This document shows, one piece after another, positions 2,987-7,460 of a stretch of 23,906 bases of DNA. A program made the translations under genes and the position numbers. Position 1 is the stretch's first letter. Each line of letters begins with the position of its first letter. The stretch comes from a virus: positions 1 through 23,906 of the IMG/VR virus record IMGVR_UViG_3300030450_001060. One strand, written 5' to 3'. A model generated the notes under the pieces. That model had not been told where the DNA came from. It was given only the letters and a program-made list of their open reading frames with translations, and did no database searches.

Positions 2987-3370
2987 ATGGCAGGTTCACT
3001 CGACACACTTCTAAAGGGTGTAGCAAAGAAGATAGTTGCTGACCTAGGCAGTTCTCTAGATACTTCTATTGTTTACACAAGGAAAACCACAAGTTCCTAT
3101 GACGTGGCAAAAGGCCGTCTACATACTGTGGAAACCGCATACAACATAAAAGTACCTGTGGAATTTGTAAGTTCTAATGAACAAGCGGGTGTGCAAGAGA
3201 ATAAAGCTAGGTTATATGTGACTCCAGATCTAATAGGGGATAGTCAGCCTTTATTACAGGATGAAGTAACTTTAACTTTCTCTGGATCGACTAGAGTGGC
3301 GAAGATAACGGATATTCACACCCTCAAGGGAGGGCAGGAGTACATGTTTCGTATTGATGTGATCTTCTAA
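2987..3370 (+). CDS. Head-tail joining (stopper-type) protein
   Basis: A 127-residue, beta-rich protein whose ATG directly follows the preceding stop and has a very good Shine-Dalgarno (AGAGGAGG). A helical start, SLDTLLKGVAKKIVADLG, leads into beta strands such as VKVPVEFVSS-like and ending RIDVIF. Size, the small beta-barrel look and its place between the adaptor and tail terminator are those of the stopper or head-completion proteins that plug the capsid channel after packaging. I do not recognise a specific family from sequence alone. Its stop codon overlaps the next start (TAATG), so the two are translationally coupled. Confidence 0.55.
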   Translation: MAGSLDTLLKGVAKKIVADLGSSLDTSIVYTRKTTSSYDVAKGRLHTVETAYNIKVPVEFVSSNEQAGVQENKARLYVTPDLIGDSQPLLQDEVTLTFSGSTRVAKITDIHTLKGGQEYMFRIDVIF

Positions 3371-3798
3371 TGTCTTTAGTTAATGCCAGAGCAGCCTTAG
3401 AGGATGCTATAAACTCTGAGCTTAAACAGCAGAATCCTAAAGTATCTGTTGTTTTTGACAATATGCCTTTTACCACTCCGGGTAAGAGCAAGAGTTATGT
3501 AATGGTAAGTATAAACTTTGAACAGTCTACAGAGCAGTCTCAAGGGGCATCTGCTACTTTTTATTCTGGTGATGTTAGATGTGGAATACTTACTCCTATG
3601 GATAAAGGTACTTATGAAGCCTCAGCAATATCTGAGATAGTTATCACAGCATTAACTAACATAAATGCATCAAGTTACGTTGATACATACTCTGTTACTC
3701 CTCGTGTATCAAGAATAAATGGTCCCACGACAATAAATAGAGAGGGGGATAGTCATCATTTAAGTGTTATAAGCTGCGATTTTACTGCTAATGGCTAG
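3370..3798 (+). CDS. Tail terminator protein (DUF4128/gpU-like)
   Basis: A 142-residue protein that opens with a helix, SLVNARAALEDAINSELKQQ, followed by strands VSVVFDNMPFT, SYVMVSINF, and later VDTYSVTPRVSRI and LSVISCDF. The helix-then-beta layout and the 'F.N.PF..P..S.YV.V...' region resemble phage tail terminators of the DUF4128 type. These form a hexameric ring that caps the growing tail tube and binds the head. The gene overlaps its upstream neighbour by one base and the downstream gene by eight, in line with co-translation of neck components. Confidence 0.65.
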   Translation: MSLVNARAALEDAINSELKQQNPKVSVVFDNMPFTTPGKSKSYVMVSINFEQSTEQSQGASATFYSGDVRCGILTPMDKGTYEASAISEIVITALTNINASSYVDTYSVTPRVSRINGPTTINREGDSHHLSVISCDFTANG

Positions 3799-4354
3799 AG
3801 ATATAAAGCATCTGCCAGAAGATTTAGAAATACTCTTAGGGGATGCTATTGGTGCATCTGCTTCAGAAATACATTTTACGTTGCAGTATGTAAGTCCTTG
3901 GTGGACCGGATCTTTCAACAGGGCTTGGGATATACATACTTCGCCTATTCAGCCTGGTTTACGAAAAGAATCTTCTGTGGCCAGCACTGAAGTTCCTCCT
4001 AGAGTCCCTAGGAAAGCACCTGAATACACCCCTGCACCTTACTCAATTTTAGGTAAACCTCTCTATATAGGGAACATGATTGAGTACGCAGGTTTTGCGG
4101 TGAATAAACCTGGAGCAACTATGCCTAGTATGGATGGAACTCCTGTAACGTATGCAGAGCATGCACAGCTTGCGAACGAAATAACTCCTCGTCCTCCCGT
4201 TGCTGATTGGTTTTGGATTTACCTACAACATGGAAGGGCTAGGTATTTAATGAGGGATATAGACAAAGGTTTTAATAAGGCAGGTTTTACTGTTGGCTTT
4301 AGCAAGGTATTCAATGCAGGGGGAAAATCGGACTATAGAGCGACAGCTATGTAG
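3791..4354 (+). CDS. HK97 gp10-like tail completion/neck protein
   Basis: A 187-residue protein. The features that point to the HK97 gp10-like neck family are a helical N-terminus, the motif SPWWTGSFNRAWDI (compare the usual 'SPv.TGrLr.si'), the strand YIGNMIEYAGFAVNKPGAT (compare 'I.N...YA..vE.G') and a C-terminal helix near RARYLMRDIDKGF. Such proteins complete the neck and help join heads to tails. It has a long proline-rich insertion around residues 55-85 (PPRVPRKAPEYTPAPY). It starts eight bases before the tail terminator stops. Gene order is unusual because no tail tube gene follows; the next gene is the assembly chaperone. Confidence 0.6.
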   Translation: MARDIKHLPEDLEILLGDAIGASASEIHFTLQYVSPWWTGSFNRAWDIHTSPIQPGLRKESSVASTEVPPRVPRKAPEYTPAPYSILGKPLYIGNMIEYAGFAVNKPGATMPSMDGTPVTYAEHAQLANEITPRPPVADWFWIYLQHGRARYLMRDIDKGFNKAGFTVGFSKVFNAGGKSDYRATAM

Positions 4355-4373
4355 TATGCGCTATAGTACATAG
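4347..4373 (+). promoter_or_regulatory. Imperfect inverted repeat across a stop codon
   Basis: CTATGTA at 4347-4353 pairs with TACATAG at 4367-4373; after one G/G mismatch three further pairs (TAT/ATA) close towards the centre. The repeat contains the stop codon of the gp10-like gene (4352-4354) and lies in the 34-base gap before the chaperone gene. There is no T-run after it, so it is not a standard terminator. It could be an RNA processing or translation-control hairpin. Confidence 0.45.
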
Positions 4374-4388
4374 GTAGCACTAAAACTT

Positions 4389-4766
4389 ATGGCAACAGAA
4401 AGAGCTATCGACAAGCTTAGGAAGGCTTTCGATATTCAAGAACGCAGTAATTACTCCATCTTCAAGGGGGAGAAGTTGGTGTTAAAAGTACATTGGACAC
4501 CTATAACTATTGCTGACAGAGATCAGATAAACAGTACACTAAGAGCACTCAACAAGGGTGAGGAAGAAGGAAGCTTAGACTTTGCTTTACAAGTTTTGAT
4601 AAGTAAGGCTGAGGACGAGGCAGGTAAGAAGCTTTTTGCAGAAGCAGACAGAGCAGCTTTAAGGAGAGAATTACCTTTAGCTGTTCTTTTGGACATAATG
4701 TCTAAGATGCAATCCTTGGGAGAGGAGGCTGACCAAGATGCCGTAAAAAGCGAGTCTGAAGAATGA
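4389..4766 (+). CDS. Tail assembly chaperone, short product (gpG-like)
   Basis: A 125-residue protein placed just before the tape measure, the invariant position of tail assembly chaperones. These bind tape measure protein and recruit tail tube subunits. The N-terminus FDIQERSNYSIFKGEKLVLKV-like strand-turn-strand is followed by helices such as RDQINSTLRALNK and LDFALQVLISKAED, and an acidic tail (QDAVKSESEE). It ends at TGA 4764-4766, but an open frame with a conserved-looking domain starts in the +1 register just before this stop; see the fusion entry. The gene is separated by 34 bases containing an inverted repeat from its upstream neighbour. Confidence 0.75.
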   Translation: MATERAIDKLRKAFDIQERSNYSIFKGEKLVLKVHWTPITIADRDQINSTLRALNKGEEEGSLDFALQVLISKAEDEAGKKLFAEADRAALRRELPLAVLLDIMSKMQSLGEEADQDAVKSESEE

Positions 4767-4950
4767 CGGATATCTGAGGTTACAATTTTTCGTAGCAGAA
4801 AGTTTGGGTTACACAGTTGCAAAGTTAAGAGGTGAAATGTCTGTAAGGGAGTTGTTTATGTGGAGTGCTTATTTCAGTTTAAAGAATGAAGAGGAAGCTA
4901 AAGCCTACGATGATGCTAGGAATAAGGCTAGAATAGGAGGTATGCGCTAA
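4389..4950 (+). CDS. Tail assembly chaperone, frameshift fusion (gpGT-like)
   Basis: In lambda-like phages a fraction of ribosomes shift frame near the end of G to add a T domain. Here the frame one base forward (+1, equivalent to -2) is open from 4747 to TAA 4948-4950. It encodes GYLRLQFFVAESLGYTVAKL, then RELFMWSAYFSL and a charged helix ending RIGGMR, which looks like a genuine T domain (aromatic pairs, 'F.W.AY...'). No good start codon precedes that domain; the first in-frame ATG (4837) would cut into it. A +1 frame TAA at 4744-4746 limits the shift to 4746-4766. Slipping of AAA 4746-4748 onto AAA 4747-4749 within A5 gives residues 1-120 plus 66, a 186-residue product. The direction differs from lambda's -1 shift. 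Confidence 0.72.
4746..4766 (+). other. Candidate +1 programmed frameshift window
   Basis: Zero-frame codons here are AAA AGC GAG TCT GAA GAA TGA. The shift to the T frame must occur after the +1 frame stop at 4744-4746 and no later than the zero-frame TGA. The A5 run at 4745-4749 allows a lysyl-tRNA to re-pair perfectly one base forward. The zero-frame stop is in the context TGA-C, as in the bacterial release-factor-2 frameshift, but the preceding GAA would re-pair poorly on AAT. An AGGAGG, resembling a Shine-Dalgarno stimulator, lies at 4723-4728. Confidence 0.55.
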
Positions 4951-4976
4951 ACTTATTTTATTTAGTAGGAAAGGCT

Positions 4977-7460
4977 GTGGCAGGGGCAACTTATTCAGTA
5001 AATATAGAGTTAAATCAGGAAGGTTTACAGAAGCAATTAACCGATCTTAAGACAAATATTCAAGGTCTGGGTAAGTTAACTTCCAAAAACGCAGGTGCTA
5101 GTAAGGAAGAATTAAAGACAATAACAGCAGAAAATAACCTATTAAACTCCAATGCTACTGTGCTAGGTAGATCTCTGAGGTTAAAGAAGTCGAACGTCGA
5201 TATAAGTAACCAAGAGGTTAGATCTGCTGAAGCGATTAAACTCATTCAGGACGGTGAATTTAAACAAGCTAAGGAGCTGATATCAGCCTCCAGATTAGAA
5301 AATACGCTTTCTAAAAATAAGCTAATAATGGAAGAAAAAACGGCCAAGGTTGCTGGTAAGCAAGTAGATACAGAGATGGAGATGCTGCGAGCCAAGCACA
5401 GAAACTTTGCCGTAAGAGACAGATTAGAAAAGTTAGCCAAAGCAGGTGTAAATGTAGACCAGGCAAGGCTTAAGTATGGGGAATTAAATACGGCACAGGG
5501 GGCTAAGGATTTCGACCAGGCTAAGAAAATAGCTTCTGAGTTATCTCTACAGCTGAAACCTATGGAGAGGAAGTTGAAGCTTCAGCAAAAGATAAGTGCG
5601 GAGGCAGCTAGAGAAGCAGACAGAATTAAAAAATTGAAGCAGATGAGTTCCCCCATAAGAGGCAATGCTTTCACAGATGTAGGTTCACCAGCCTGGAACG
5701 ATAGGGTAAGTCGCATACAAGGCGATACTTCTCCTGTAAGAGGCACAGCATCCATGCGTGGTTCACCCGCTTGGTTAGAGGCAAGGTCATCTAGAAATAG
5801 GATGGCCACTCAATCTGCATTAATAAGTGGAGCTTTCCCACTTCTATTTGGGCAGGGACCAGTTACAGCTGCTGCTGGTGCATTAGGTGGTGGTTTAGGT
5901 GCAAAGTTTGGCGGTCAGATGGGAGGATTTGCAGGAGGTTTAGCTGCTACCGCTGCTGTATCGTCTATTCAGGAGATGATAGCTGGCATATCTGATCTAG
6001 GGAAAGCTTTAGACCCTGTTAATGGGGATCTAGATGCTTTGATTTCCTCTATGGGTAAATCCAATACGGCTAGAGGGGCAGAGTTGAAGAGGATTGAAGC
6101 TCTATCTGGTAAACAGGCTGCATTAGAAGCAGCCACCAAAGATATGGCTAAGGTTATAGGTGATGATGGTGTACGTGCTCTTAGAAAATTCTCTGAGGTT
6201 GGAGTTGATTTTACTAATAATTTGCAGCGTTTATGGCTGAAGTTACAGGCTAACGTAGCGAATGTGTTTGAGACTATTACTACCCTTACAGGTGCGGATA
6301 TACAACGTGAGTTTGACGCATTTGAGAGGGATAATCCTGGGGATTCGAGAATCGTAGATATGAGAAATAATAGGCAAAGAATCGAAAATATTACTCAGAA
6401 TAAGTACTCGGATGAGTTCAAGGAATTTAGGACAAATAAGATGGGAGGTAATGTGGGGGCGTTATTTGGTGAGGTTAATGAAGAAGGTATTGCGGAGGTC
6501 AATAGGTTACTTAAGGAGCAAGGTAGGATTATGGCAGAGATACTTACTTTGCGAGCACAAGAAACAGCTGAATCTCATTATAAGAAGGCTAAATTAGATC
6601 TAGAGAAACATTTGAAGAGCTTAGACGATGAACACATTTTAGAGAAGAGAATACTGGAACTAAGAAGGGATGGACTTAATCCTGCTATGGCTAAGCAGAT
6701 AGCATTGATAGAGAAGAAAGCGAGGGAGACTGATAAAGCTGTGCAAGCATCCATAAACGAGCTGACTACGGAAATAGCCAGTTTAGAAACCAAAAAGGAA
6801 TTGAAGCCTGTCGAAGAGGCAAGGTTGTTGTTACTGCAAGAGCAGTTAAAAACATTGAAGGAGATGATGGCCTTAGAAGAAGGAACTTTAGACGTAATAA
6901 GGGCCAGAATAGAAGAAAGGGGAAGAGAAAAAGAATTGCTTGATTTAAACCTTCAAATTACAGAGCAGATAAGAGACACCATAAAGGAAGGCATAGTTGA
7001 TGGTATTTATAGTGCTATAGAGGGTTCTAAAACTTTAGGAGAGGTACTGTCTCAAGTATTAGATAATTTAGCCAAACAGATACTTCAATCTGGAGTCAAT
7101 AAGTTATTCGCCAGCTGGGGCGGAGGTGGAGGTGGGGGTAAAGATAAAGGTACTAATTTAGTAGATATTTTTAGTATGGGGCAGGGCTTAAACATACCTT
7201 TTAGGGCAGCGGGCGGTTCTGTAACTGGTGGTTCTCCTTACGTTGTAGGAGAGAAAGGTCCAGAATTGTTTGTTCCTGGCAGTAGCGGTAGTATTGTTCC
7301 TAATAGTGAAATAGGTGGTTCTATGGTTATTAATGTGGATGCATCTGGTTCCTCTGTTGAGGGGGATGCTAATAAGAGTAGGGAGCTAGGGCAGTTGATA
7401 GGTGCTGCTGTTCAAGCTGAAATAGGTAGACAGCAAAGACCTGGAGGTATGCTTTATTAA
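4977..7460 (+). CDS. Tail tape measure protein
   Basis: An 827-residue protein that sets tail length, fills the tail lumen and is ejected into the host envelope. It begins at GTG after AGGAAAGG. Residues about 1-220 are Lys/Glu/Leu-rich coiled coil. Two related segments follow, SPIRGNAFTDVGSPAW (225-240) and SPVRGTASMRGSPAW (252-266). A hydrophobic Ala/Gly-rich segment (about 276-334) probably inserts in membrane. More coiled coil runs to about residue 690, then a Gly run, and the C-terminus carries the hallmark AAGGSVTGGSPYVVGEKG followed by PELFVPG. At roughly 0.15 nm per residue the tail would be near 120 nm. Position after the chaperones agrees with the call. Confidence 0.93.
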   Translation: MAGATYSVNIELNQEGLQKQLTDLKTNIQGLGKLTSKNAGASKEELKTITAENNLLNSNATVLGRSLRLKKSNVDISNQEVRSAEAIKLIQDGEFKQAKELISASRLENTLSKNKLIMEEKTAKVAGKQVDTEMEMLRAKHRNFAVRDRLEKLAKAGVNVDQARLKYGELNTAQGAKDFDQAKKIASELSLQLKPMERKLKLQQKISAEAAREADRIKKLKQMSSPIRGNAFTDVGSPAWNDRVSRIQGDTSPVRGTASMRGSPAWLEARSSRNRMATQSALISGAFPLLFGQGPVTAAAGALGGGLGAKFGGQMGGFAGGLAATAAVSSIQEMIAGISDLGKALDPVNGDLDALISSMGKSNTARGAELKRIEALSGKQAALEAATKDMAKVIGDDGVRALRKFSEVGVDFTNNLQRLWLKLQANVANVFETITTLTGADIQREFDAFERDNPGDSRIVDMRNNRQRIENITQNKYSDEFKEFRTNKMGGNVGALFGEVNEEGIAEVNRLLKEQGRIMAEILTLRAQETAESHYKKAKLDLEKHLKSLDDEHILEKRILELRRDGLNPAMAKQIALIEKKARETDKAVQASINELTTEIASLETKKELKPVEEARLLLLQEQLKTLKEMMALEEGTLDVIRARIEERGREKELLDLNLQITEQIRDTIKEGIVDGIYSAIEGSKTLGEVLSQVLDNLAKQILQSGVNKLFASWGGGGGGGKDKGTNLVDIFSMGQGLNIPFRAAGGSVTGGSPYVVGEKGPELFVPGSSGSIVPNSEIGGSMVINVDASGSSVEGDANKSRELGQLIGAAVQAEIGRQQRPGGMLY

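Follow-up and report, generated by a model that had tools for sequence, protein, structure and literature searches.

The locus lies in a marine long-tailed phage sequence (IMG/VR record IMGVR_UViG_3300030450_001060); the window, the whole stretch of DNA analysed, is 23,906 nt long and is the sole contig of this record. Just 5′ of the tape measure gene, two ORFs stand next to each other, overlapping and in different frames. The features discussed here are the following.

4389–4766, + strand: G-like tail assembly chaperone ORF, 125 aa, zero frame, from ATG at 4389 to TGA at 4764–4766; assigned by PHROG matches and an AlphaFold model.

4724–4728, + strand: Shine-Dalgarno-like GGAGG, 17 nt before the slip codon, a putative 5′ stimulator; at −22 in 72/72 distinct G genes of the window's clade.

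4737–4745, + strand: GAT GCC GTA, a possible 5′ stimulator or context; identical in 72/72 distinct G genes of the window's clade, with no synonymous change.

4744–4746, + strand: TAA of the +1 frame, read from the sequence, which bars a slip further upstream; 152/221 junctions have a +1-frame stop directly against the slip site.

4746–4751, + strand: predicted +1 slip site AAA_AGC; AAA in 217/217 distinct G genes, AAA_AG in 255/255 loci, two-stop spans of 11 nt in 72/221 junctions.

4747–4950, + strand: T-like domain, 67 codons plus TAA, in the +1 frame only; matches to PHROG 337, 14766 and 25875.

4764–4766, + strand: zero-frame TGA, read from the sequence, the stop of G and the 3′ limit of the shift, not itself a conserved shift site; the stop position differs between homologues.

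4977–7460, + strand: tape measure protein gene, the client of the chaperone; PHROG tape measure matches.

The T domain, which contains GYLRLQFFVAESLGYTVAKL and closes with the TAA at 4948–4950, has no ATG before 4837, and the ATG at 4837 sits within the conserved domain. Because the TAA at 4744–4746 and the TGA at 4764–4766 flank the junction, a shift must fall between these two stops. An A5 run occupies positions 4745–4749, where the frame of G reads GTA AAA AGC. Conceptual fusion of G residues 1–120 to T gives a GT protein of 186 aa. The length of T, 67 codons, is constant throughout the window's clade, and the closest relatives (L002 and L003, with G 98% identical) have the same frames as the window. 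The sequence-only reading of this DNA had described a tail chaperone pair in which T is open only one base ahead of G and in which the shift is confined by the two stops. Its coordinates and frames are borne out by the sequence, and both stops were found where it had placed them; the assignment as a chaperone pair agrees with the profile matches to both halves, the gene order and the fold of G described below.

In the PHROG profile search, G matched phrog_20784 (E 2.9e-16) and the tail assembly chaperone family phrog_344 (E 2.3e-5), and T alone gave weak matches to several tail families. The profile of phrog_14766, a single-frame family of 224 aa, aligned collinearly to residues 77–161 of the conceptual fusion and was unbroken at the junction; phrog_25875 matched the fusion weakly. 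Genes homologous to scaffold, major head protein and Ad1 precede the terminator, and the order that follows is terminator, G, T, tape measure and the M, L, K, I and J homologues. A search of PDB sequences with the profile of G returned no match, and so fold comparison was used instead. When the AlphaFold model of G alone (alignment of 32 relatives, pLDDT 79.5), in which residues 111–125, including the slip site, are disordered, was compared with the PDB, the HK97 tail assembly chaperone (2OB9) ranked first (probability 1.00, E 4.6e-3, TM 0.51/0.59), with YqbN (3KLU) among the first five. The match between the modelled fold of G and 2OB9 is regarded as moderate. As judged from these comparisons, the locus is a lambda-type G/GT tail assembly chaperone pair and not a member of the −1 heptamer class. 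It resembles G/GT of phage lambda in lying directly 5′ of the tape measure gene, in a short G with a presumptive rarer GT, in the placement of the slip near the 3′ end of G and in the predicted HK97-chaperone-like fold of G.

In the interval from the tail terminator to G (window 3370–4389), a major tail tube gene could not be recognised. The gene at 3791–4354 has no family match; its weak resemblances are to neck ORFs, one in AG-345-A17 (E 2e-5) and one in S-2L (E 0.04). AG-345-A17 (L085 4341–4799) is likewise without a tube gene there, whereas one is present in S-2L, S-H1 and MED4-184, which are cultured −1 relatives.

T stands in the +1 relation to G in 80/80 of the best IMG/VR homologues of G. 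These 80 were enlarged to a set of 244 +1 loci by alignment-based and AG-345-A17-based searches and to 255 by outgroup searches, the counts being of assembled contigs with related sequences among them. AAA_AG was present at the junction in 255/255 loci of the +1 class, mostly as AAA_AGC, sometimes as AAA_AGT and in two as AAA_AGG; 177 distinct junctions of the 244-locus set comprised 160 AAA_AGC, 16 AAA_AGT and 1 AAA_AGG. The two loci with the AAA_AGG variant (L230 and L236) are AG-345-A17-like and otherwise +1 as usual. Independently, and with no protein search involved, viral contigs were scanned for the DNA pattern GGAGG-N8-GATGCCGTAAAAAGC, which gave 111 further loci. Of these, 109 fell exactly on a +1 G/T junction, one was at the end of a contig that has G, and one was an unrelated gene. 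On these counts, the +1 arrangement at this locus is far beyond chance. The same T domain is also carried by two short contigs (L166 and L167) of a Maricaulis MAG (isolate IN14), probably a misbinned virus. A DNA search of the window against phage records gave no match.

A one-base sequencing or assembly error in a −1 or in-frame gene would also produce the frames seen in the window, and −1 homologues had been put forward as a sign of such an error. Outgroup phages are indeed in the −1 relation, but they form separate lineages with −1 slip sites of their own. The frames and the site recur in hundreds of independent contigs, by which the error reading is refuted, and the probability left to it is next to nil.

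The homologues narrow the position of the shift. In 72 of the 221 distinct junctions both stops are flush with the site, giving a span of 11 nt (e.g., TAAAAAGCTAA) that leaves only AAA and AGY as the slip site. The slip lysine codon is AAA in every one of the 217 distinct G genes, whereas all other codons whose amino acid is at least 90% conserved vary synonymously (normalised entropy 0.34–0.95). In the DDL/DAI/DEL clades only 41% of Lys codons are AAA, and the figure for the KBS-like clade is 33%; the slip codon is nevertheless invariably AAA there. The A-run is A4 in 104 and A5 in 117 of the 221 distinct G-T regions; four A's are what +1 re-pairing of a single tRNA-Lys needs. Counted over the genes of the window, AAA_AGY turns up twice where codon frequencies predict 5.9, a weak hint that it is avoided elsewhere. 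The A5 run (AAA to AAA) had been singled out beforehand as the best slip site, and it is there that the homologues place the shift. TGA-C, the second site then suggested, did not hold up: a shift at 4764 was rejected because neither the stop position nor its context is conserved, the stop of G following directly after AAA AGY in 74/221 junctions.

Part of what would be expected of a programmed +1 shift is found at this locus: no frame but +1 is open through the T domain, AAAA is invariant and forward re-pairing in the P site is possible. A tandem slippery heptamer (X_XXY_YYZ, with T in the −1 frame) is not present, as T is in the +1 frame and AAA AGY comes after a variable codon.

The frame relation itself is compatible with either +1 or −2, and both had been named beforehand. 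Shifting by −2 has been reported for the chaperone of phage Mu (PMC5009743, PMC3498833), and at the same place here it would give the same frame outcome, adding one Lys at the junction. The −2 triplets in the 221 distinct junctions are TAA (107), TGA (45), TTA (35), CTA (14), CAA (10), TCA (6) and CCA (4); a Lys codon (AAA or AAG) is never among them, whereas the +1 triplet is always AAA. In contrast to Mu, where the same relative frame is reached by a −2 slip, the tRNA would find nothing to re-pair with two bases back. As a −2 slip would set tRNA-Lys against triplets such as UAA, UGA and UUA, +1 (AAA to AAA) is strongly preferred, and the −2 half of the earlier alternative is disfavoured and considered quite improbable.

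The length of the A-run bears on slippage of RNA polymerase, which can occur on A-runs and could also restore the frame by giving a mixed mRNA population. Known transcriptional slippage runs are often of at least 8 (PMC3711429) but the runs here are only A4 or A5, and the strict AGY after the run would be without a role. Polymerase slippage is judged extremely improbable as the source of GT.

Upstream of the site, conservation is lineage-specific. In addition to the elements of the window's clade listed above, GAGG is found at −18 in 68/68 distinct G genes of the AG-345-A17 clade, and GAGGCTAAAGCC lies upstream of the slip in 68/68 of that clade. GCC accounts for about 9% of Ala codons in window-clade G genes and for 4% in the AG-345-A17 clade. 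The conserved stretch may serve as a 5′ stimulator or cause pausing. The Shine-Dalgarno-like element stands 14–17 nt upstream of the slip site and not close to it, a spacing that differs from that in prfB. No +1 stimulator of a recognised kind stands out. Of the A-site codons, AGC has a low frequency in the window (6.0 per 1000) and AGT does not (27.5 per 1000), and across the +1 loci the A site is not bound to a stop or to a scarce sense codon. In the window's clade, no consistent folding signal and no covariation was found for a downstream stem-loop or pseudoknot; an Rfam search of 3700–5600 gave no match, and no phage-encoded tRNA able to alter AGY decoding was found within the window.

GGAGG and GAT GCC GTA (window 4724–4745) also give ATG CCG TAA in the +1 frame (4738–4746). 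In the window's clade, where GGAGG and G-ATG-CCG-TAA are conserved, these could serve for making T separately from a start of its own, by coupling or re-initiation. That ATG, however, is closed by TAA two codons on and is missing from most other +1 clades. There is no conserved start position, the first ATG after the slip lying mostly 21, 30 or 31 codons in and being absent in 38/221. A separate start would also leave the AAAA constraint unexplained, and single-frame fused homologue profiles exist; taken with these points, it is judged highly improbable. Comparison of the homologues establishes the identity of the pair, the relation of its frames, the location and conservation of the site and the lack of a conserved start for T.

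We consider it very likely that the locus encodes a lambda-type chaperone pair in which +1 slippage at AAA_AGC makes a GT fusion. From the comparisons above we infer that slippage occurs, its direction (+1 over −2), its efficiency and the chaperone mechanism, as follows. Most ribosomes would read G and terminate at the TGA at 4764–4766. A smaller share would slip: with AAA 4746–4748 in the P site and AGC in the A site, tRNA-Lys would move forward by one base and re-pair with AAA 4747–4749, the next codon being GCG (Ala). Reading on through T to 4950 would then yield the 186-aa fusion (...QDAVK-ASLKNDGYLR...). By analogy with lambda, G would coat the tape measure protein and GT would connect the tape measure to tail tube subunits, with the efficiency of slippage setting the G:GT ratio.

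Homologues of G and T are also found in cultured relatives among the cyanophages and pelagiphages, most of which carry A_AAA_AAC. KBS-S-2A (GTA AAA AAC TAA), S-H1 (GCA AAA AAC), and HTVC202P and HTVC026P (both GTA AAA AAA AAC), all with A_AAA_AAC, and S-2L (GAC CCA AAG; C_CCA_AAG) share a homologous slip junction with the window, and their T starts with Lys as it does here; unlike here, the relation is −1. MED4-184 and MED4-117 are also −1 (GCA AAG). The −1 relation holds in 80/80 S-H1-like IMG/VR loci. Among KBS-S-2A-like loci both relations occur: the majority are −1, almost always with AAA AAC, and the rest are +1 with ATG AAA AGC. A tree of 34 GT representatives, calculated from about 170 columns with the slip-site residues left out, has 5 direction changes, at least 4 of them forced by well-supported branches, and 3 when four long rows are omitted; as the tree is without a known root, these are changes in which gains are not distinguishable from losses. 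A single +1 clade was rejected (AU p 1.6e-4 with all rows, 7.4e-5 without the long rows). A long-branch warning applies to this short tree near the AG-345-A17 and S-H1 groups, and the switch inside the KBS-like group is independent of that region. On this evidence the relation has switched repeatedly between +1 and −1 among these relatives, with at least 3–4 changes.

Programmed frameshifts of tail chaperones are conserved in most long-tailed phages, with −1 as the rule, and Xu, Hendrix and Duda reportedly described a conserved set of them in 2004. Lambda and most phages shift by −1 on a tandem slippery heptamer, whereas here the shift would be +1 on AAA_AGY with re-pairing of a single tRNA. 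To our knowledge, AAA_AGY has not been established as a +1 slip sequence. The +1 site of bacterial prfB is CUU_UGA. In Listeria phages PSA, A118 and A500, the +1 sites of tsh and cps, which are tail-shaft and capsid genes, are CCC_UGA and ACA_CCC_(UCC) (PMC5009743). These genes, the SPP1 tail gene and prfB are examples of programmed +1 shifts in phage structural genes or in bacteria; in contrast to the Listeria phage sites and prfB, Lys AAA here precedes a sense codon, AGY. Tailed phages variously use −1, −2 or +1 for their tail chaperones, Mu using −2 (reviewed in PMC5009743), and the tail chaperone of the haloarchaeal virus HSTV-2 is very likely +1 (PMC5009743). This archaeal myovirus would thus have the +1 relation in its tail chaperone gene as here. 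Shifting by +1 in tail chaperones is therefore known in kind. In the open-access literature searched, we found no description of a conserved AAA_AGY +1 tail-chaperone site, of its spread or of recurrent switching of direction. AAA_AGY is probably a kind of bacterial +1 slip site that has not been described before. A large group of phages, most of them marine and some from other waters, would use it, and their chaperone genes would flip repeatedly between A_AAA_AAC −1 and AAA_AGY +1 at the same codon position, with the fusion protein kept and at least 3–4 flips in the family.

Such a natural series of direction flips with a constant product makes it testable what selection keeps, the G:GT ratio and not the direction, and also what minimal sequence is required for the forward slip of a bacterial ribosome on a Lys codon. 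T has been overlooked in annotations of this phage group. The authors of PRFect, a frameshift finder, state that a general forward motif is yet to be identified, and the forward motifs of the tool, only simple three- and four-base runs (PMC10885494), limit its search for forward shifts. In the records of the cultured relatives (L251–L256 and L084), the T frame after G is unannotated or unjoined, leaving a gap of ∼170–270 nt before the tape measure gene; in S-H1 a separate short ORF lies in this gap.
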